IMG/VR virus record: IMGVR_UViG_3300021091_000516
Location: 1 to 20,345 of that record
Origin: a virus
Reading direction: 5' to 3' (one strand)
Length of the DNA stretch: 20,345 nt
Positions 2,384 through 8,632 of this stretch are shown here, one piece after another. Every line of letters begins with the position of its first letter. Positions within the stretch are counted from its first letter, which is position 1. The notes beneath the pieces are model-generated. The model saw nothing but the letters and a program-made list of their open reading frames with translations, was not told the origin of the DNA and ran no database searches. The translations under genes were made by a program, and so were the position numbers.

Positions 2384-2540
2384 CGGGCTTGCTCTCCATC
2401 TGTCTGGCACCCCAGCGTGCAGCACGGGTTGCTACGTCGTTGATCCAGTAGACAAGCTCTGGGTCGCTTGATGCCTGGGCATCCCGCCACCATTCCTTCA
2501 CCAGTTCAAGTGGTGGTGTGACTGCATGTGGATCAGTCAT
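2376..2540 (-). CDS. Hypothetical protein, 54 aa
   Basis: Sequence MTDPHAVTPPLELVKEWWRD at the start, then an acidic turn and 'NDVATRAARWGARQMESK' helix. The 'PPLELVxEW' opening with a later 'ATRAARWGA' helix is a pattern I associate with short aquatic-phage proteins of unknown function. An upstream in-frame ATG at 2591 would add 17 residues but would extend 58 nt into the preceding gene, so I use the ATG at 2540, whose ATGACTGA overlaps the upstream stop. It overlaps the next gene by 8 nt. Confidence 0.68.
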   Translation of the reverse strand: MTDPHAVTPPLELVKEWWRDAQASSDPELVYWINDVATRAARWGARQMESKPDG

Positions 2541-2688
2541 CTGCTTTGTCCTGGTACGTGGCCAACACATGGCGTGCAAAGGCCGCGGCAATGGTTGCGT
2601 TCTGTGCGTTAGGCACCACGGAGTAGCTGTCCTGCCACCAATCCCGATAGAGCTGGATCAGTTGCGTGTCAGTGAGTTCGGTTTTCAT
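2533..2688 (-). CDS. Hypothetical protein, 51 aa
   Basis: A short frame encoding MKTELTDTQLIQLYRDWWQD, a loop, then 'ATIAAAFARHVLATYQDKAD'. It reads as two helices joined by a polar loop. The 'LTDTQLIQLYRDWW' opening resembles N-terminal helices of several short phage proteins with no known role. The stop TGA sits inside the overlap with the next ATG, the usual arrangement here. Together with the 54-aa gene after it, it may be translated as a coupled pair. Confidence 0.7.
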   Translation of the reverse strand: MKTELTDTQLIQLYRDWWQDSYSVVPNAQNATIAAAFARHVLATYQDKADD

Positions 2689-2794
2689 TGGGCTGTTGAA
2701 GTTGCGGGATGTTGGGGCTGAGTTGATTGGCTAGTGCACCCAGGGACCAAACGACAATGGCCCATGCGCACAAATCAGAAATGCTCTTGCTCAT
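2669..2794 (-). CDS. Possible small single-span membrane protein, 41 aa
   Basis: The frame starts MSKSISDLCAWAIVVWSLGA and ends in a polar Asn/Gln/Pro-rich tail. Residues about 7-25 are hydrophobic enough for one membrane segment. GAGG lies 6 nt before the ATG. It overlaps the end of the upstream frame by 20 nt and the start of the 51-aa gene by 20 nt, and it covers an otherwise empty 86-nt gap. I see no family. It could be a chance frame, but the ribosome site and coherent hydrophobic stretch favour a real microprotein. Confidence 0.45.
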   Translation of the reverse strand: MSKSISDLCAWAIVVWSLGALANQLSPNIPQLQQPNENRTH

Positions 2795-2954
2795 CAAGGT
2801 CCTCATACACGGTGCGTGCGCGGCCACACAACTCCCGGTCCTCCTCTGGTGTCCACCGCTTGGCTAGCTGCCGGATGTCGGCGGCCAGACAGCAGTGGCC
2901 GTCAGCAAACAGACGAAGAGATGCCTCAAGAAGAAGGCGGTGCGGTTGCTGCAA
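2775..2954 (-). CDS. Hypothetical helical protein, about 59 aa, start uncertain
   Basis: A frame ending in TGA at 2775 encodes 'HRLLLEASLRLFADGHCCLA' then 'DIRQLAKRW-TPEEDRELC' and an acidic C-terminus (VYEDLDEQEHF). The composition and helix-turn-helix periodicity look protein-coding, but the frame has no ATG: the first usable codon is a TTG at 2954. Upstream it stays open to the TGA that ends the 73-aa coiled-coil gene (3012), which lies in the same frame. It may therefore start at TTG, be reached by stop read-through, or represent a gene that lost its start. No family recognised. Confidence 0.5.
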   Translation of the reverse strand: MQQPHRLLLEASLRLFADGHCCLAADIRQLAKRWTPEEDRELCGRARTVYEDLDEQEHF

Positions 2955-3011
2955 GGTGCGTGGCGGATCCGGCAGAGCATGCCGCCTTACCTGCCCATAG
3001 ACCGCTGCTGT

Positions 3012-3233
3012 TCACGGTTTGTTGCAATCCTGTTCCGACAGCTGCGCGGCCAGACGTTGATAGGTCCGTTGGCACTGGCGTATGTCGGCACGGATGGCCC
3101 CGATCTGCCCGTTAATCTGCAGCAGCTGACGGCTGGCGCCGTCTTTGCCGAGTTGCCGAGTCAGTCGCTCGTGGGCCTCGTGGAGCTGGTGCAGGCGCAC
3201 AGATAGCTGCGCCAGGTCTGATAGGTCTGCCAT
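3012..3233 (-). CDS. Hypothetical coiled-coil protein, 73 aa
   Basis: After MADLSDLAQLSVRLHQLHEA the protein continues with heptad-like spacing of Leu/Ile (RLTRQLG, LLQINGQIGAIRADI, YQRLAAQLS), typical of a helical coiled coil. Function unknown. I start it at the ATG at 3233 because the nine upstream residues (MGPTTHPPP) would be encoded inside the repeated hairpin/leader element. A CCACCACCC run directly abuts the ATG in place of a Shine-Dalgarno sequence. The gene follows hairpin element 3252-3271. Confidence 0.65.
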   Translation of the reverse strand: MADLSDLAQLSVRLHQLHEAHERLTRQLGKDGASRQLLQINGQIGAIRADIRQCQRTYQRLAAQLSEQDCNKP

Positions 3234-3251
3234 GGGTGGTGGGTGGGTAGT

Positions 3252-3271
3252 GGGCCCCATTGCTGGGGCCC
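3252..3271. repeat. Intergenic hairpin element 1 (GGGCCCCA/TGGGGCCC)
   Basis: Perfect 8-bp stem with a 4-nt TTGC loop (plus-strand sense) placed 11 nt after the stop of the 70-aa gene and 18 nt before the start of the 73-aa gene. On the transcribed strand no T-run follows, so it is not a canonical intrinsic terminator. Confidence 0.8.
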
Positions 3272-3282
3272 GTGGTGGTGGG

Positions 3283-3495
3283 CTAGTCAGCCTGAGTGGC
3301 TGCCATTGCCTCGGCCTCTAGCTGCTTGACCGCTTCTTCAACGTTCAGCTCAGTGCCGGGCAAAGAGGGTTCACGATCGAAAAAGTAAAAGCGGACGCCT
3401 TCGGCCAGCAGCAGGCTCAGCATCTGGGATCTGCCGCGCATTTCTGCGTTGCTCACCAGCTGCAGAACCTTGGCCTGGGTTTCTGTGAGTTTCAT
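3283..3495 (-). CDS. Hypothetical protein, 70 aa
   Basis: Starts MKLTETQAKVLQLVSNAEMR; then a hydrophobic patch 'MLSLLLAEGVRFYFFDREPS' and an acidic helix 'NVEEAVKQLEAEAMAATQ'. The opening 'LTETQAKVLQLV' resembles the first helix of winged-helix proteins, but the rest does not complete such a fold convincingly. The gene is one unit of the hairpin-separated array: hairpin 3516-3535 precedes it, CCACCACAC lies 6 nt before the ATG, and hairpin 3252-3271 follows 11 nt after the stop. Unknown function. Confidence 0.68.
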   Translation of the reverse strand: MKLTETQAKVLQLVSNAEMRGRSQMLSLLLAEGVRFYFFDREPSLPGTELNVEEAVKQLEAEAMAATQAD

Positions 3496-3515
3496 GGTGC
3501 TGTGTGGTGGGTAGT

Positions 3516-3535
3516 GGGCCCCATTGCTGGGGCCC
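3516..3535. repeat. Intergenic hairpin element 2 (identical to element 1)
   Basis: The same 20-nt palindrome as at 3252-3271, with identical loop. It lies 8 nt after the stop of the 66-aa gene and 20 nt before the start of the 70-aa gene. The flanks (GTAGT before and CGTGGTG after, plus strand) are also shared with element 1. Confidence 0.8.
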
Positions 3536-3543
3536 GTGGTGAA

Positions 3544-3744
3544 TCAGTAGTAGTGAACCTCCCCATCCACAAATGAGTTAGGGTAACGGTTCTGGTATTG
3601 CTCAATGGCGTGCTCGCAATCCCGTCTGCTGAAATAGCAGCCAAGGTTTTGCCGCCTGATGTAGGCCGGAAAATTTTCGTCAGTGAACTTGCGGAACACC
3701 TGCCAAACCATGCGGCCTGGCTGGCGTGTTGGTGTGCTTGTCAT
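3544..3744 (-). CDS. Hypothetical protein, 66 aa
   Basis: A basic N-terminus (MTSTPTRQPGRMVWQVFRKF) is followed by aromatic residues and a 'SRRDCEHAIEQYQNRYPNSF' helix, ending in GEVHYY. The 'A-x-x-x-Y-Q-N-R-Y-P-N' helix echoes the 'FSKNRYPNA' helix of the 84-aa protein at 842-1096, so the two might be distant relatives. The ATG at 3744 is chosen because a CCACCACAG leader lies 8 nt upstream. It is flanked by hairpins 3771-3790 and 3516-3535. No established family. Confidence 0.66.
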   Translation of the reverse strand: MTSTPTRQPGRMVWQVFRKFTDENFPAYIRRQNLGCYFSRRDCEHAIEQYQNRYPNSFVDGEVHYY

Positions 3745-3770
3745 GGTGTGTTCTGTGGTGGGTGGTTAAT

Positions 3771-3790
3771 GGGCCCCATTGCTAGGGCCC
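3771..3790. repeat. Intergenic hairpin element 3 (one-base variant)
   Basis: Same as elements 1 and 2 except one base, which leaves a 6-bp GGGCCC stem, a C-A mismatch and a further A-T pair around the TTGC loop. It lies 10 nt after the stop of the 61-aa gene. Confidence 0.75.
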
Positions 3791-3800
3791 GTGGTGGTCG

Positions 3801-3986
3801 TTACAGGGTGTGATGGTCTCGGGTTTGCATGTAGTGCAACACCTGCTCCTCTGTGATGGTTCGGCTTGCAACGGGCAGGCCTTGCTCGTAGGCCATGGCA
3901 CACCAGCCGGTGTGTCCGATGGTGGTGCGCAGGAACTGCACGGAGCTGCCCGGGAACTGCACCCGGGAGACGTTTTGTAGGTCCAT
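3801..3986 (-). CDS. Hypothetical protein, 61 aa
   Basis: Begins MDLQNVSRVQFPGSSVQFLR, continues with 'TTIGHTGWCAMAYEQGLPVA' and ends in a short helix 'TEEQVLHYMQTRDHHTL'. The arrangement, short strands around 'W-C-A-M-A' then a helix, suggests a tiny alpha/beta domain; no family recognised. CCACCACAC lies 6 nt before the ATG and hairpin 4025-4042 stands 38 nt upstream. The stop is followed after 10 nt by hairpin 3771-3790. Confidence 0.65.
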   Translation of the reverse strand: MDLQNVSRVQFPGSSVQFLRTTIGHTGWCAMAYEQGLPVASRTITEEQVLHYMQTRDHHTL

Positions 3987-4024
3987 TGTGTTGTGTGGTG
4001 GGTGGTGCTGGAGAACCCAGCAGA

Positions 4025-4042
4025 GAGGCCCACAGGGGCCTC
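4025..4042. repeat. Intergenic hairpin element 4 (GAGGCCC/GGGCCTC)
   Basis: 7-bp perfect stem with a 4-nt ACAG loop, different in sequence from elements 1-3 but in the same position: 10 nt after the stop of the 43-aa gene and 38 nt before the start of the 61-aa gene. Confidence 0.7.
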
Positions 4043-4052
4043 AGTGATGGGA

Positions 4053-4184
4053 TCAGGGGCCCGGGTAGACCGTCATGGTGCGACGGTCGGGCAGGGTGTA
4101 CCTGGGGCTTGCTAGGTCCTGGAGGATGACCGCCCAAGCCACCGTTGAGGCGACCAGGGCGAACGCTGCGGGTAGGTAGCGCAT
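4053..4184 (-). CDS. Small membrane or exported protein, 43 aa
   Basis: The frame starts MRYLPAAFALVASTVAWAVI and ends with a polar tail (SPRYTLPDRRTMTVYPGP). Residues 4-22 form one hydrophobic segment after a single Arg, so the protein is either membrane-anchored or carries a signal-like anchor. Its ATG lies 3 nt after the stop of the 52-aa gene at 4188-4346 with no hairpin between, so these two form one translational unit in an array where all other genes are separated by hairpins. No family recognised. Confidence 0.6.
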   Translation of the reverse strand: MRYLPAAFALVASTVAWAVILQDLASPRYTLPDRRTMTVYPGP

Positions 4185-4187
4185 GGG

Positions 4188-4346
4188 TCAGGCCTTGTCG
4201 TAGCAATCAAACCACTCCCCTTCCTTGCGGGTGTTGGGGTCTTTGCAGTGCTCCTGCGCCTGTTCCAAGGTCAAACCACGCTTAACGATGCGGTCAACCC
4301 TCTGCAGGTGTGGTGCGTAGCAACGAATGATTTTGTAGGTGTCCAT
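4188..4346 (-). CDS. Small phage protein of the 'LTLEQAQEHC-DP-WFD' type, 52 aa
   Basis: The sequence opens MDTYKIIRCYAPHLQRVDRI, then 'KRGLTLEQAQEHCKDPNTRK' and ends 'EGEWFDCYDKA'. This layout, a strand 'YKIIR-Y', a basic second strand, a 'GLTLEQAQEHC' helix, 'DP-T' and a terminal 'WFD-Y', is a widespread small-protein type in phages infecting many hosts; its function is unknown. The start is fixed by the family pattern and by a CCACCACAC leader 8 nt upstream; longer versions would read through hairpin 4385-4402. It is followed at 3 nt by the 43-aa membrane protein gene. Confidence 0.78.
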   Translation of the reverse strand: MDTYKIIRCYAPHLQRVDRIVKRGLTLEQAQEHCKDPNTRKEGEWFDCYDKA

Positions 4347-4384
4347 GGTGTGCGGTGTGGTGGGTGTGAGGGTGAGCCCCTCAG

Positions 4385-4402
4385 AGGGCCCCGTAGGGCC
4401 CT
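4385..4402. repeat. Intergenic hairpin element 5 (AGGGCCC/GGGCCCT)
   Basis: 7-bp perfect stem around a 4-nt loop, 9 nt after the stop of the 62-aa gene and 38 nt before the start of the 52-aa gene. On the minus strand it contains GCCCTACGGG, a 10-mer that recurs at 5175-5184 in the control region. Confidence 0.72.
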
Positions 4403-4411
4403 GGGAGAGGG

Positions 4412-4600
4412 TCAGCCGATAACGAACACCGCCTCGGGGTGGTGCTGCTCGGCCCAGAAGCACTGGACGCGACCCATGTCGCGCAAGTGAGCGTTGAGCC
4501 TGTCGACCTCGTCCTCGGCCTGTTGTTCGGTCAGGTGGCTGTAGTGCACGCTGACCTCGCCCCAGTGCCGGGAGTAGATCGCAAAGGTGCCGGTTGCCAT
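4412..4600 (-). CDS. Hypothetical protein, 62 aa, first gene of the leftward array
   Basis: Starts MATGTFAIYSRHWGEVSVHY, followed by a helix 'TEQQAEDEVDRLNAHLRDMG' and a last strand 'CFWAEQHHPEAVFVIG'. This strand-helix-strand plan with an 'A-x-x-x-V-x-R-L-N' helix resembles small phage proteins that modulate host enzymes, but no specific family can be named. CCACCACAC lies 12 nt before the ATG. It is the promoter-proximal gene next to the large control region, so it is probably among the first leftward products. Confidence 0.68.
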   Translation of the reverse strand: MATGTFAIYSRHWGEVSVHYSHLTEQQAEDEVDRLNAHLRDMGRVQCFWAEQHHPEAVFVIG

Positions 4601-4662
4601 GTGTCTAGGTGCGTGTGGTGGGCAGCAGTCAGCACGTGGCCGTCTGCTGTTCCCCCATCCTA

Positions 4663-4680
4663 GCCCCTACCGCTAGGGGC
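4663..4680. repeat. Hairpin element 6, upstream of the first array gene
   Basis: GCCCCT (4663-4668) and AGGGGC (4675-4680) pair around a 6-nt loop, 62 nt upstream of the first leftward gene. It appears to be the leading member of the hairpin series and would lie in the 5' leader if transcription starts further right. Confidence 0.55.
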
Positions 4681-4700
4681 GCATCGTTTCGGACCTGCTG

Positions 4701-4750
4701 TTGCCTTGGTGCTCTGTGGTGCTCTCTGGTGTTGCCTGGTGTTGCCTGGT
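4701..4750. repeat. Five-copy 10-bp tandem repeat
   Basis: Five consecutive decamers (TTGCCTTGGT, GCTCTGTGGT, GCTCTCTGGT, GTTGCCTGGT twice) all end in GGT and share a pyrimidine-rich core. The 10-bp period places each copy on the same face of the helix, as in iterons or clustered protein sites. Confidence 0.65.
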
Positions 4751-5069
4751 GTGGGGCGGCAAACAAGCAACACGCAGGCCCCCAGCTGCCGCCCTGCTGC
4801 AGTCTGCGGACGCCCCCCTGCCCGCCCTTGGGTTATGTAGTCCCCTGGGATCCCAGTTGTGCCAATGGGTTAGGGCCTGCTGTTGCGGCTGTTGTTGCAA
4901 TGCACCCCCCCAGCCCCTGTCACAAATTGCCGGCAGGGCCCCTACGGGGGGTGATTGCGGCCAGGGGTGTACGCGTAAGCCCCTCACATTTTCGGAGCAA
5001 AAAAGCAAGCCTGGGTTACCAAGGACGACCAAGCGTTTAACAGGGTTTAACTAAGTACAACTTAGGTTG

Positions 5070-5128
5070 TATAGGGTACTTAGGTGTACCTAAGTGAACT
5101 ATGTATTAGATATTAGGGAGTACTAAGG
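5070..5128 (+). promoter_or_regulatory. Two T7-promoter-like cores, candidate phage polymerase promoters
   Basis: TATAGGG followed by TACTTAGG (5070-5084) and TATTAGGGAG followed by TACTAAGG (5111-5128) are two imperfect copies of one motif. Both resemble the initiation half of the T7 class promoter (CACTATAGGGAG), while the upstream recognition half does not match. They point rightward, toward the terminase genes, about 330-390 nt upstream. No RNA polymerase gene is in the window. Confidence 0.3.
5078..5095. repeat. 18-bp near-perfect palindrome ACTTAGGT-GT-ACCTAAGT
   Basis: Two 8-nt arms are exact reverse complements around a GT centre. It overlaps the downstream end of the first promoter-like core. 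A related shorter inverted repeat (CTAAGT/ACTTAG, 5051-5065) lies just upstream. Possible operator. Confidence 0.55.
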
Positions 5129-5197
5129 ACCTAATACTTAATACACCTTGTATCTATAGTTCAAAGGGGTTAGAGCCCTACGGGAGTAGATCCAGCC

Positions 5198-5216
5198 GGT
5201 GCAGCAGAGCTGCACC
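5198..5216. repeat. 8-bp stem hairpin GGTGCAGC/GCTGCACC
   Basis: Perfect 8-bp inverted repeat with an AGA loop. It lies between the AT-rich segment and the AACCATAGTT palindrome. No T-run follows on either strand, so it is not an obvious terminator. Confidence 0.55.
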
Positions 5217-5219
5217 TAT

Positions 5220-5249
5220 AACCATGGTGAACCATAGTTAACTATGGTT
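5220..5249. repeat. Three AACCAT(A/G)GT copies including a 20-bp perfect palindrome
   Basis: AACCATGGT (5220-5228) is followed by AACCATAGTT joined to its exact reverse complement (5230-5249). Repeated short units with dyad symmetry next to an AT-rich tract are typical of binding sites for replication initiators or repressors; which applies cannot be decided from sequence. Confidence 0.6.
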
Positions 5250-5250
5250 A

Positions 5251-5298
5251 CCCCTTCCCCCCCTTACCCCCCCTTCCCCTATTGCCCCTATTTCCCCC
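5251..5298 (-). other. G-quadruplex-type tract on the minus strand
   Basis: The minus strand carries six runs of four to seven G separated by two to five nt. This satisfies the usual G4 pattern several times over. It is placed between the 20-bp palindrome and the small terminase gene. Confidence 0.6.
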
Positions 5299-5347
5299 TA
5301 TTCATTATTGCGCAGTACATGTGTTCTCGTCCCCAGTTGGCAGGTAA

Positions 5348-5374
5348 GGGGGTGATGGGGTTAGGGTGATGGGG
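5348..5374 (+). other. G-quadruplex-type tract on the plus strand
   Basis: Four G runs (5, 4, 3 and 4) separated by TGAT or TTA, with GGTGATGGGG present as a direct repeat. It lies 84 nt before the small terminase ATG and, with the minus-strand tract, gives G4-type sequences on both strands within 125 bp. Confidence 0.55.
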
Positions 5375-5457
5375 TGCCTGTGGTGGGCACTGCTGAACAG
5401 GGAGGAGGGTTGCCGCTCTCCTCTCCACAAACCCAAAGGAGACAGCAGGAGGCCCCT

Positions 5458-5700
5458 ATGGCCCGCAAGGACATCAACGAGCAGCTAGCTGACCTGCATG
5501 CAGGCTTGGCAATGCACCTGAAGGACAAGCTGGATGAGGGCACCATCACGGGCAGTGAGTTAAATGTCCTGCGGCAGTTCCTGAAGGACAACCAGATCAG
5601 TGCGCAGCCAGTAGAGGGCACGCCATTTGGTGACCTGGTGTCGTCCCTGCCTGATTTGGACAAGGTGGTGCACATGGCACCACGTCGTAAATCGGCTTGA
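5458..5700 (+). CDS. terS: Terminase small subunit (T7 gp18-type DNA maturase A)
   Basis: 80-aa protein starting MARKDINEQLADLHAGLAMH, helical in its first half ('LHAGLAMHLKDKLDEGTITG', 'ELNVLRQFLKDNQISA') and extended in its second. Size (T7 gp18 is 89 aa), helical start and position directly before the large terminase identify it. It would recognise the packaging site and feed DNA to the motor. AGGAGG lies 5 nt before the ATG at 5458, which rules out the longer in-frame start at 5374. Its TGA overlaps the next ATG (TGATG), so the two subunits are coupled. The call rests on synteny and size more than on sequence motifs. Confidence 0.85.
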   Translation: MARKDINEQLADLHAGLAMHLKDKLDEGTITGSELNVLRQFLKDNQISAQPVEGTPFGDLVSSLPDLDKVVHMAPRRKSA

Positions 5701-7430: not shown

Positions 7431-7653
7431 GCCGGTGCGGCTAAAGGCTTACGTGATCCGTTTGCCAGGCGTGTTTATTAGCGTTGACGGCCACAAGGAG
7501 CGCGGATCCTTCCAAACCATTGTCATGGCACTCAGTGAGGACATGGCCTGGGACGTCGCTATCCAGCACGATGTCTGGGAACGGCTGCCGTTCAAGGTTT
7601 CCGACGTCCAAATCTTCCCTAAAGACCCCGTGTTGACCCATGGCAGCCATTAA
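7402..7653 (+). CDS. Hypothetical protein between terminase and endolysin, 83 aa
   Basis: The likely start is the ATG at 7402, inside the 3' end of the terminase gene (29-nt overlap), giving MAHGSPCKDEPVRLKAYVIR. The protein has alternating strands ('RLKAYVIRLPGVFISVDGH', 'GSFQTIVMALSED') then an amphipathic helix 'AWDVAIQHDVWERLPFKVSD'. This looks like a compact alpha/beta domain of the kind found in small phage proteins; no family named. It overlaps the endolysin start by 14 nt. Position in a packaging-lysis operon suggests a late role. Confidence 0.65.
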   Translation: MAHGSPCKDEPVRLKAYVIRLPGVFISVDGHKERGSFQTIVMALSEDMAWDVAIQHDVWERLPFKVSDVQIFPKDPVLTHGSH

Positions 7654-8632
7654 GCTGACTGACGCGGCTAAGCACTACAAGGAGCTACCCCATCAGATAG
7701 CGGCCTGGAACGCCCTACAAGGCCTGTTGACCCCCGATCAGCTATCTGAGTTCGCTGAGGTCTATAGGGCGGCTCCTAGGCCCAAGGAGACGCCTTTCAC
7801 GAACACTTGGGATGGCGTTACGACTCTTGCCCGTCAGGCTGGCGCCAAGTACCCCGAGCTGGTAGCAGCCCAATGGGCTCTTGAATCAGGCTGGGGCAAG
7901 CACTTTTCAGGCACCTGGAACGCATTTGGCCTCAAAGGCGTTGGTGCTGACGTTGAAACCAAGGAGTTCATCAACGGCAAGTGGGTCACCATCACCGCTG
8001 GCTTCATTAACTTCCCTGACCTGGCCACCTGCGTTCAGTACTTGGTTGACCGTTGGTACAAAGACTTCAGAAATTTCCGTGGTGTTAACCACGCTTGGAC
8101 GCGCAATGCCGCAGCTAAACAGTTAGTCAACGAAGGCTACGCCACAGATCCGACCTACGCCGAAAAGCTTATTCGATTGATGGATGAGCAAGGGTCGCCT
8201 GTTGTTCAGGCACCAAAATTCACACCGACGTCACCGTTTTCTTTTCAGCTAACTCCCAACATCACCTACGGAGAGCTTGCTCTTCACTCTGAGGCACGTC
8301 GTTTCAAGTGGCAACACCAATGCGACACCGCCATAGTGCTTGCGCAGTATGCCCAAAAGGCCCGCACTCACTTCGGCAAGCCCGTTGTCATCACTTCCGG
8401 CTACAGGCCTCCCAAGATCAACGCTCAAGTTGGTGGTGCTGCCCGTTCTGAGCATCTCTACGACGCACCAGACACAGGTGCCATCGATTTCTACGTCGAC
8501 GGCATGTCAGTAATAGAGCTACAGCGTTGGATGGACAAGCAATACCCGTATTCCCTTGGCTACGGCGCACCCAAGGGCTTTGTTCACATTGGCATCCGCC
8601 CTGGGCGGCCCCGTATTCGCTGGGATTACTAA
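7640..8632 (+). CDS. Bifunctional endolysin: glucosaminidase-like plus M15-type peptidase
   Basis: 330 residues in two parts. Residues about 55-185 match the glucosaminidase (FlgJ-like, GH73 type) fold: 'LVAAQWALESGWGKHFSGTW' with Glu82 as the likely catalytic acid, then 'NAFGLKG', 'FINFPDLATCVQYLVDRWY' and 'LVNEGYATDPTYAEKLIRLM'. A short linker follows. Residues about 203-330 match peptidase M15 (M15A-type, DUF882-like): 'ITSGYRPPKINAQVGGAARS' with 'SEH' (His272), 'AIDFYVD' (Asp283) and 'FVHIG' (His316), the expected zinc ligands. The enzyme would cut both the glycan strand and the peptide stem of peptidoglycan during host lysis. No signal peptide, so a holin is required. It starts inside the preceding gene and its TAATG joins it to the next. 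Confidence 0.9.
   Translation: MAAIKLTDAAKHYKELPHQIAAWNALQGLLTPDQLSEFAEVYRAAPRPKETPFTNTWDGVTTLARQAGAKYPELVAAQWALESGWGKHFSGTWNAFGLKGVGADVETKEFINGKWVTITAGFINFPDLATCVQYLVDRWYKDFRNFRGVNHAWTRNAAAKQLVNEGYATDPTYAEKLIRLMDEQGSPVVQAPKFTPTSPFSFQLTPNITYGELALHSEARRFKWQHQCDTAIVLAQYAQKARTHFGKPVVITSGYRPPKINAQVGGAARSEHLYDAPDTGAIDFYVDGMSVIELQRWMDKQYPYSLGYGAPKGFVHIGIRPGRPRIRWDY

Follow-up and report, generated by a model that had tools for sequence, protein, structure and literature searches.

The 20,345-nucleotide (nt) sequence of a virus analysed here (IMG/VR record IMGVR_UViG_3300021091_000516; this whole stretch is called the window) carries an array of small genes, all on the minus strand, which are separated by short linkers. 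Each linker combines a hairpin close behind the stop codon of one gene with a leader ahead of the start of the next. The observations described below suggest, with a probability of about 0.6, that the array consists of early genes exchangeable as cassettes and joined by RNA linkers, that these linkers insulate or protect the individual cistrons, and that linkers of one kind, type II, may detect a ribosome positioned on the stop codon. Many of the linkers are predicted to hold two competing RNA folds, and these are kept even between linkers of entirely different sequence. That the linkers protect or insulate the 3' ends, that ribosomes gate them and that the gene swaps arise by recombination is inferred.

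The virus is a T7-like phage of freshwater cyanobacteria. The deposited phages nearest to it in terminase are the Prochlorococcus P-SCSP1 phages (about 76% identity), which are MPP-C cyanopodoviruses (PMC9860041). The records of P-SCSP1, Syn5 and S-SRP02 give Autographiviridae as the family. The array is probably located in the early region of the genome. Genes were called with a home-made codon-score caller, and the relatives used for comparison are largely fragmentary sequences.

The hairpin and its position behind the stop codon

Gaps between same-strand genes were chosen in the relatives solely by the start-side motif CCACCAC or CCACCGC, with hairpins ignored, giving 43 distinct gaps. A hairpin, counted if it has at least six pairs, is present in 36 of them, compared to 1.8 in dinucleotide shuffles. 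It starts 6-11 nt past the stop codon in 35 gaps (0.30 in shuffles) and carries a GNRA, UNCG or CACG tetraloop in 28 (0.00 in shuffles). Once the loci that had originally been retrieved by their hairpin pattern are removed, a hairpin is found in 29 of 35 gaps. The distance from the stop codon to the hairpin is tight (mean 9.3, standard deviation 1.9 nt), whereas the distance from the hairpin to the next start varies from 18 to 59 nt (standard deviation 10). The hairpin thus belongs to the 3' end of the gene before it. A first-pass annotation of this DNA had placed hairpins 8-11 nt after the upstream stop codons in five gaps of the window, and the distances are indeed 9, 10, 10, 8 and 11 nt.

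Among 71 distinct linkers, GNRA or UNCG loops are found on the sense strand in 45 and on the antisense strand in one, from the relative L090. Hairpin 1, the hairpin next to the stop codon, covaries across the type II linkers described below with a score of 0.727, and both sides of its stem are changed in 40 cells compared to 17 in shuffles, although pairing there is partly due to the way the linkers were selected. As the tetraloops are strand-specific and the stems covary, the hairpin is an RNA element and not a DNA site. The first-pass annotation had left RNA and DNA open when it proposed selection on the hairpin and a covariance analysis of the stems; selection is borne out, and the sense-strand tetraloops together with the placement relative to the stop codon put it at the RNA level. 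At positions 2130-2149 of L090 an inverted type I hairpin, with the sense loop UUGC instead of GCAA, occupies the usual place between stop codon and leader.

The GC-rich hairpins with stable tetraloops soon after stop codons look like terminator stems, and the array could in principle contain attenuators or leaky intrinsic terminators that grade expression along it. The relatives L048, L055, L075 and L083 also have a similar stem with a T-rich tail, which follows a late gene that probably encodes the capsid protein. However, the array hairpins are not followed by a T-run, as the first-pass annotation had pointed out in judging simple termination unlikely. Terminator-like sites across the array region occur at chance level, and none of them coincides with a linker hairpin. 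The terminator reading was rejected on these grounds, and attenuation is improbable as well because hairpins in series would starve the distal genes.

In the four relatives just mentioned, the T-tailed hairpin (L048 16342, L055 16303, L075 8948, L083 8309) lies 10-11 nt past the stop codon of a gene of 321-327 amino acids (aa), and it looks like a true terminator, in contrast to the array hairpins. No match to Rfam 15 at gathering score was found in the window. A possible likeness of the stem to the promoter of the Syn5 RNA polymerase was dropped on the reasoning that the fold is constant and the sequence forming the stem is not.

A sixth hairpin, at 4663-4680 ahead of the first gene, had been counted with the others in the first-pass annotation. 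It does not belong to the class, as its stem has a G-to-T change with no compensation in three close relatives of the window (L004, L005 and L006). The hairpin that adjoins the leader of the first cassette (4623..4649, minus strand; CAGCAG-A-CGGC...GCUG-A-CUGCUG) does show a compensatory change, with CAGCAG/CUGCUG in the window and CAGCGG/CCGCUG in the same three relatives.

The leader on the start side

Every linker ends in a C/A-rich leader similar to CCCACCAC ahead of the ATG, a component missed by the first-pass annotation. These leaders consist of 83% A+C (49% C, 34% A), compared to 57% for the leaders of other genes. Strings resembling a Shine-Dalgarno sequence are present in 8 of 46 linker leaders and in 152 of 384 other genes. 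According to PMC3121790, a local lack of structure allows translation without ribosome-binding sites.

Competing folds in the type II linkers

The linkers are of two types. Type I linkers have a single hairpin, usually GGGCCCCA-GCAA-UGGGGCCC. In type II linkers, hairpin 1 (mostly with a UNCG loop) is followed by a segment B beginning with UG and then by a segment C; the pairing of B and C forms hairpin 2. Segment B is also complementary to a segment A at positions 2-8 after the stop codon. The first-pass annotation saw neither the second hairpin nor this alternative pairing. In total, 33 type II linkers were collected, two of them in the window, and they were selected without using segment A.

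The energy of the A:B duplex averages -7.7 over the 33 linkers, compared to -5.0 +/- 0.37 after random reassignment of the A segments to linkers (0 of 20,000 permutations), and -8.1 compared to -5.0 +/- 0.45 when only unique A/B pairs are considered. The covariation of the A:B columns is 0.371, with 0.123 in shuffles and at most 0.153 in controls in which the segments were slid. That of the B:C columns is 0.490, partly by selection, since C was chosen as the best match to B. Several of the differences between A and C are kept as G-U pairs with B (for instance GCUUGCA and GCCUGC in the phage S-SRP02 described below), and A is therefore not a mere copy of C.

The A:B and B:C pairings are mutually exclusive because both use the same bases of B. 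In 24 of the 33 linkers the energies predicted for these states are no more than 3 kcal/mol apart, and the median difference is 1.0. In the window, the type II linker at 4347..4411 (minus strand) is composed of A (4404-4410), hairpin 1 (4385-4402; GGGCCC-UACG-GGGCCC, 9 nt past the stop codon), B (4377-4383), C (about 4367-4372) and the leader CACCCACCACACCGCACACC; its A:B state is predicted at -24.1 and its B:C state at -24.4 kcal/mol. The other, at 3987..4052 (minus strand), has A at 4045-4051, hairpin 1 at 4025-4042 (GAGGCCC-CUGU-GGGCCUC, 10 nt past the stop codon), B at 4016-4022, C at 4006-4012 and the leader ACCACCCACCACACAACACA, with -22.3 kcal/mol for A:B and -23.2 kcal/mol for B:C.

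It is quite possible that no regulated switch is involved, in which case A:B would simply lengthen hairpin 1, and B:C would be a hairpin in its own right. This explanation concerns the type II part only and is compatible with cassettes joined by linkers. It would suit the nine of 33 linkers in which the two states are more than 3 kcal/mol apart, as well as those that keep A:B with the stop codon about 20-22 nt away. It does not explain why both pairings use the same bases of B and are both conserved, in S-SRP02 as well.

In type II linkers, A:B and hairpin 1 together amount to about 13-16 pairs, which include an internal loop. The linkers might be cut by RNase III or a similar enzyme, as in the early region of T7, the extended hairpin being cleaved to free separate mRNAs. 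The virus family shared with T7 (Autographiviridae) and the probable early position of the array would fit. Type I hairpins, however, have just 7-8 pairs, which is short for RNase III, and the strong preference for tetraloops is no known requirement of this enzyme, so that processing of this kind appears unlikely.

The same rule in a cultured phage

The Synechococcus phage S-SRP02 (MW822601) was reached through a distant relative, L111, after the A/B/C rule had been fixed. The terminases of L111, L115 and L108 are about 43% identical to that of the window. S-SRP02 follows the linker rule of the window with different sequences. The A/B/C segments of its three early-gene linkers are CACUGCA/UGCAGUG/CACUGC, with the stem beginning 10 nt past the stop codon, GCUUGCA/UGCAGGC/GCCUGC, with the stem beginning 9 nt past it, and CUCUGCA/UGCAGGG/CCCUG. 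All seven A:B pairs are present in each of the three, for which the chance is about 0.001 per linker. A keyword search of the S-SRP02 paper (PMC8790148) finds nothing on such linkers. Its conservation in a cultured isolate and across phages whose terminases are about 43% identical makes the A/B/C pairing a candidate for an intercistronic RNA switch of a new class.

Gene gain and loss at the linkers

The first-pass annotation had proposed to look for gene gain or loss at the hairpins in related phages, and genes do come and go at the linkers. L004, L005 and L006 match the flanks of the window at 91-95% identity. Between the 43-aa gene (4053..4184, minus strand; family F7) and the 73-aa gene (3012..3233, minus strand; family F21), which links the array to the conserved early block, there are three genes in the window, one in L004, none in L005 and two in L006, and all of them are different. 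In L005 the sequence CCCACCAC is where the linker of the 43-aa gene passes into the leader that precedes the 73-aa gene, so that the breakpoint is in the leader and not in the hairpin. As the set of genes enclosed by the linkers varies among such near relatives, the linkers are cassette boundaries. In 37 distinct arrays, 89% of the comparisons over linkers show a different following gene, against 64% over tight junctions and 59% over other array junctions, these comparisons being pairwise and hence not independent. The same segment A, UCCCAUCAC, recurs behind different genes, which shows that linkers are not tied to one gene.

Such exchange, and the recurrence of linker sequences within and between genomes, would also be expected if the linkers were DNA repeats kept for shuffling alone, with no function as RNA. 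This is very improbable, because the stems and the A:B:C pairings covary through sequence changes that destroy DNA homology, the tetraloops are strand-specific and the distance to the stop codon is fixed. The first-pass annotation had offered an RNA stabiliser or processing site and a cassette boundary as alternatives; the choice between them falls away, as the linker is an RNA element and a cassette boundary at once. No integron attC boxes (R/L, RYYYAAC/GTTRRRY) flanking the hairpins were seen on reading the linkers, no systematic search having been made; this agrees with the first-pass annotation, to which the hairpins did not look like attC sites.

A possible mechanism

By combining these observations, it is possible to describe how the linkers might work. 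The cassettes would be read from one strand, and the linker would make each cistron self-contained. A terminating ribosome covers about 10 nt beyond the stop codon. The extra-stable hairpin, about 9-10 nt past the stop codon, would therefore lie at the leading edge of the terminating ribosome, the nearest spot where it is not melted. There it would end and protect the upstream cistron and keep upstream structure and ribosomes off the next one. The leader, poor in U and G and rich in C and A, would offer an open landing site for the next gene, in general with no Shine-Dalgarno sequence. The similarity of the linkers would let recombination within them add, drop or swap cassettes and leave the neighbours unharmed.

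In the type II linkers, a ribosome on the stop codon would cover segment A and B:C would be favoured. When the stop codon is empty, A:B would form and extend the hairpin down to the stop codon. The linker could then report the translation of the preceding gene and set the stability or expression of its neighbours. That type II linkers are ribosome-gated RNA switches at many early-gene borders, carried with and defining swappable cassettes in several cyanophage lineages, is put forward tentatively and is itself rather doubtful.

Several observations weigh against the scheme of insulating linkers with a ribosome-sensing type II. The unpaired probability near the starts is not uniformly higher in the cassettes than in the other genes of the window. 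Both type II linkers of the window slightly favour B:C even without a ribosome, and type I linkers lack A:B:C altogether. In L114, L116 and L182 the hairpins lie about 20-22 nt past the present stop codon with A:B still kept, which is a misfit with strict gating by the ribosome. Gene neighbours change at linker-free junctions too, so that exchange is not confined to linkers. Finally, some families of the relatives are joined without a linker: F7 ends tight against the next gene in L017, L070, L087, L196, L197 and L198. The first-pass annotation had named relatives with the same genes and no hairpins as evidence against its proposal; this was found for the one family F7, so that the linker does not go with any particular gene and is a joining device.

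T7-like cyanophages are abundant in lakes and seas, and the linkers would provide a concrete molecular joint at which these phages gain and lose small early genes without upsetting the expression of the neighbours. The linkers may also be useful for finding and delimiting real small genes in unannotated viral sequence.

Comparison with known systems

Among known systems, the linkers appear to work most like the promoter early stem-loops (PeSLs) of T4-like myoviruses, which were reportedly studied by Arbiol in 2010 and Comeau in 2014. Both are repeated stem-loops between small open reading frames in a fast-changing or hypervariable region of the genome. Genes are exchanged at the linkers, and PeSLs are proposed to mediate gene shuffling between related phages. 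The linkers differ in having a C/A-rich translation leader as the downstream half, a fixed distance to the stop codon and the A:B:C competition, and they occur in T7-like cyanophages, whereas PeSLs occur in T4-like phages (PMC4503421). A search for sigma-70-type promoters found no site in window positions 2400-5700, although cyanobacterial or phage promoters may differ. As no promoter was found in them, the linkers were not filed as PeSLs.

The SAS and ESAS elements of cluster K mycobacteriophages are likewise repeated intergenic elements with inverted repeats upstream of small-gene starts. The 13-bp SAS, GGGATAGGAGCCC, lies next to the start, and the inverted repeats are not RNA-pairing according to the authors (PMC3203893). 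In the linkers, by contrast, there is covariation of the RNA pairing, and the hairpin keeps its place relative to the stop codon ahead of it. Identity with ESAS was ruled out by the covarying stems and by the different leader sequence.

In the early region of T7, the sites for RNase III are intercistronic RNA stems. They resemble the linkers in lying among early genes of the same virus family; the linkers have short stems, GNRA or UNCG loops and a fixed distance to the stop codon instead. T4 has intercistronic C(UUCG)G hairpins, which are also extra-stable tetraloop hairpins between phage genes, whereas the linker hairpin is part of a composite with A:B:C and the leader and is associated with cassette exchange. 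The control of repA in IncB and IncL plasmids is an RNA switch that depends on translation termination. There, as in the gating proposed here, a ribosome at the stop codon would make one of the partners in an alternative pairing available; the linkers differ in being repeated at many gene borders and in having no leader peptide.

Distribution and the array in the window

The array DNA of the window has no match among deposited phages. That of L023 has 58-nt matches to P-SCSP1 phages only. Hairpins of the array type are absent from P-SCSP1n, P-SCSP2 and P-SSP7, and nothing convincing was found in Syn5. A search for host or prophage copies found no TerL relatives in the bacterial and archaeal genome collection. 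An integrase is encoded downstream of the array, and its full-length copy in L005 matches the Pfam family Phage_integrase.

The first cassette gene (4412..4600, minus strand, as all the following; 62 aa), with no assigned function, is supported by its open reading frame and codon score and is replaced in L004, L005 and L006. It is followed by the 52-aa cassette gene (4188..4346), in whose place L004, L005 and L006 have unrelated genes of 137, 87 and 97 aa. The 52-aa gene joins the 43-aa gene tightly by TGA-CCC-ATG, so that hairpins are present in five gaps of the array and missing from this junction. Downstream of the 43-aa gene there are cassette genes of 61 aa (3801..3986; family F45), 66 aa (3544..3744; with relatives in L090 and L098) and 70 aa (3283..3495; not in the arrays of L004, L005 and L006).

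These three genes are each followed by a type I linker consisting of a hairpin and a leader. The hairpin of the linker at 3745..3800 is GGGCCCUA-GCAA-UGGGGCCC (3771-3790, 10 nt past the stop codon). Those at 3496..3543 (hairpin at 3516-3535, 8 nt past the stop codon) and 3234..3282 (3252-3271, 11 nt) both have GGGCCCCA-GCAA-UGGGGCCC. Two identical elements, a third with one base different (the pair being kept as U-G) and two with other stems had been correctly recognised before. The 73-aa gene follows, in a flank of about 95% DNA identity in near relatives.

The cassette proteins of the window that were searched have no PHROGs match. Among 25 cassette proteins from the window and its relatives, a few match families without known function, and there is one weak match to FlxA. 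A 97-aa cassette protein, GWRNHATW..., of L102 (a contig shared with L006) resembles DUF7249, and the Pfam match to DUF7249 is probably this protein.

Upstream of the first cassette, window positions 4695-4750 contain tandem-like repeats of about 10 nt (GGCAACACCA / GAGAGCACCA in the sense of the minus strand), which have altered forms in L004, L005 and L006. An AT-rich region at 5030-5250, between two divergent gene blocks, has several inverted repeats, such as ACTTAGGTGTACCTAAGT and AACCATAGTT/AACTATGGTT, which are possibly operators or an origin. Further along, positions 7640-8632 on the plus strand encode a predicted two-domain lysin, with glucosaminidase and peptidase M15 domains.

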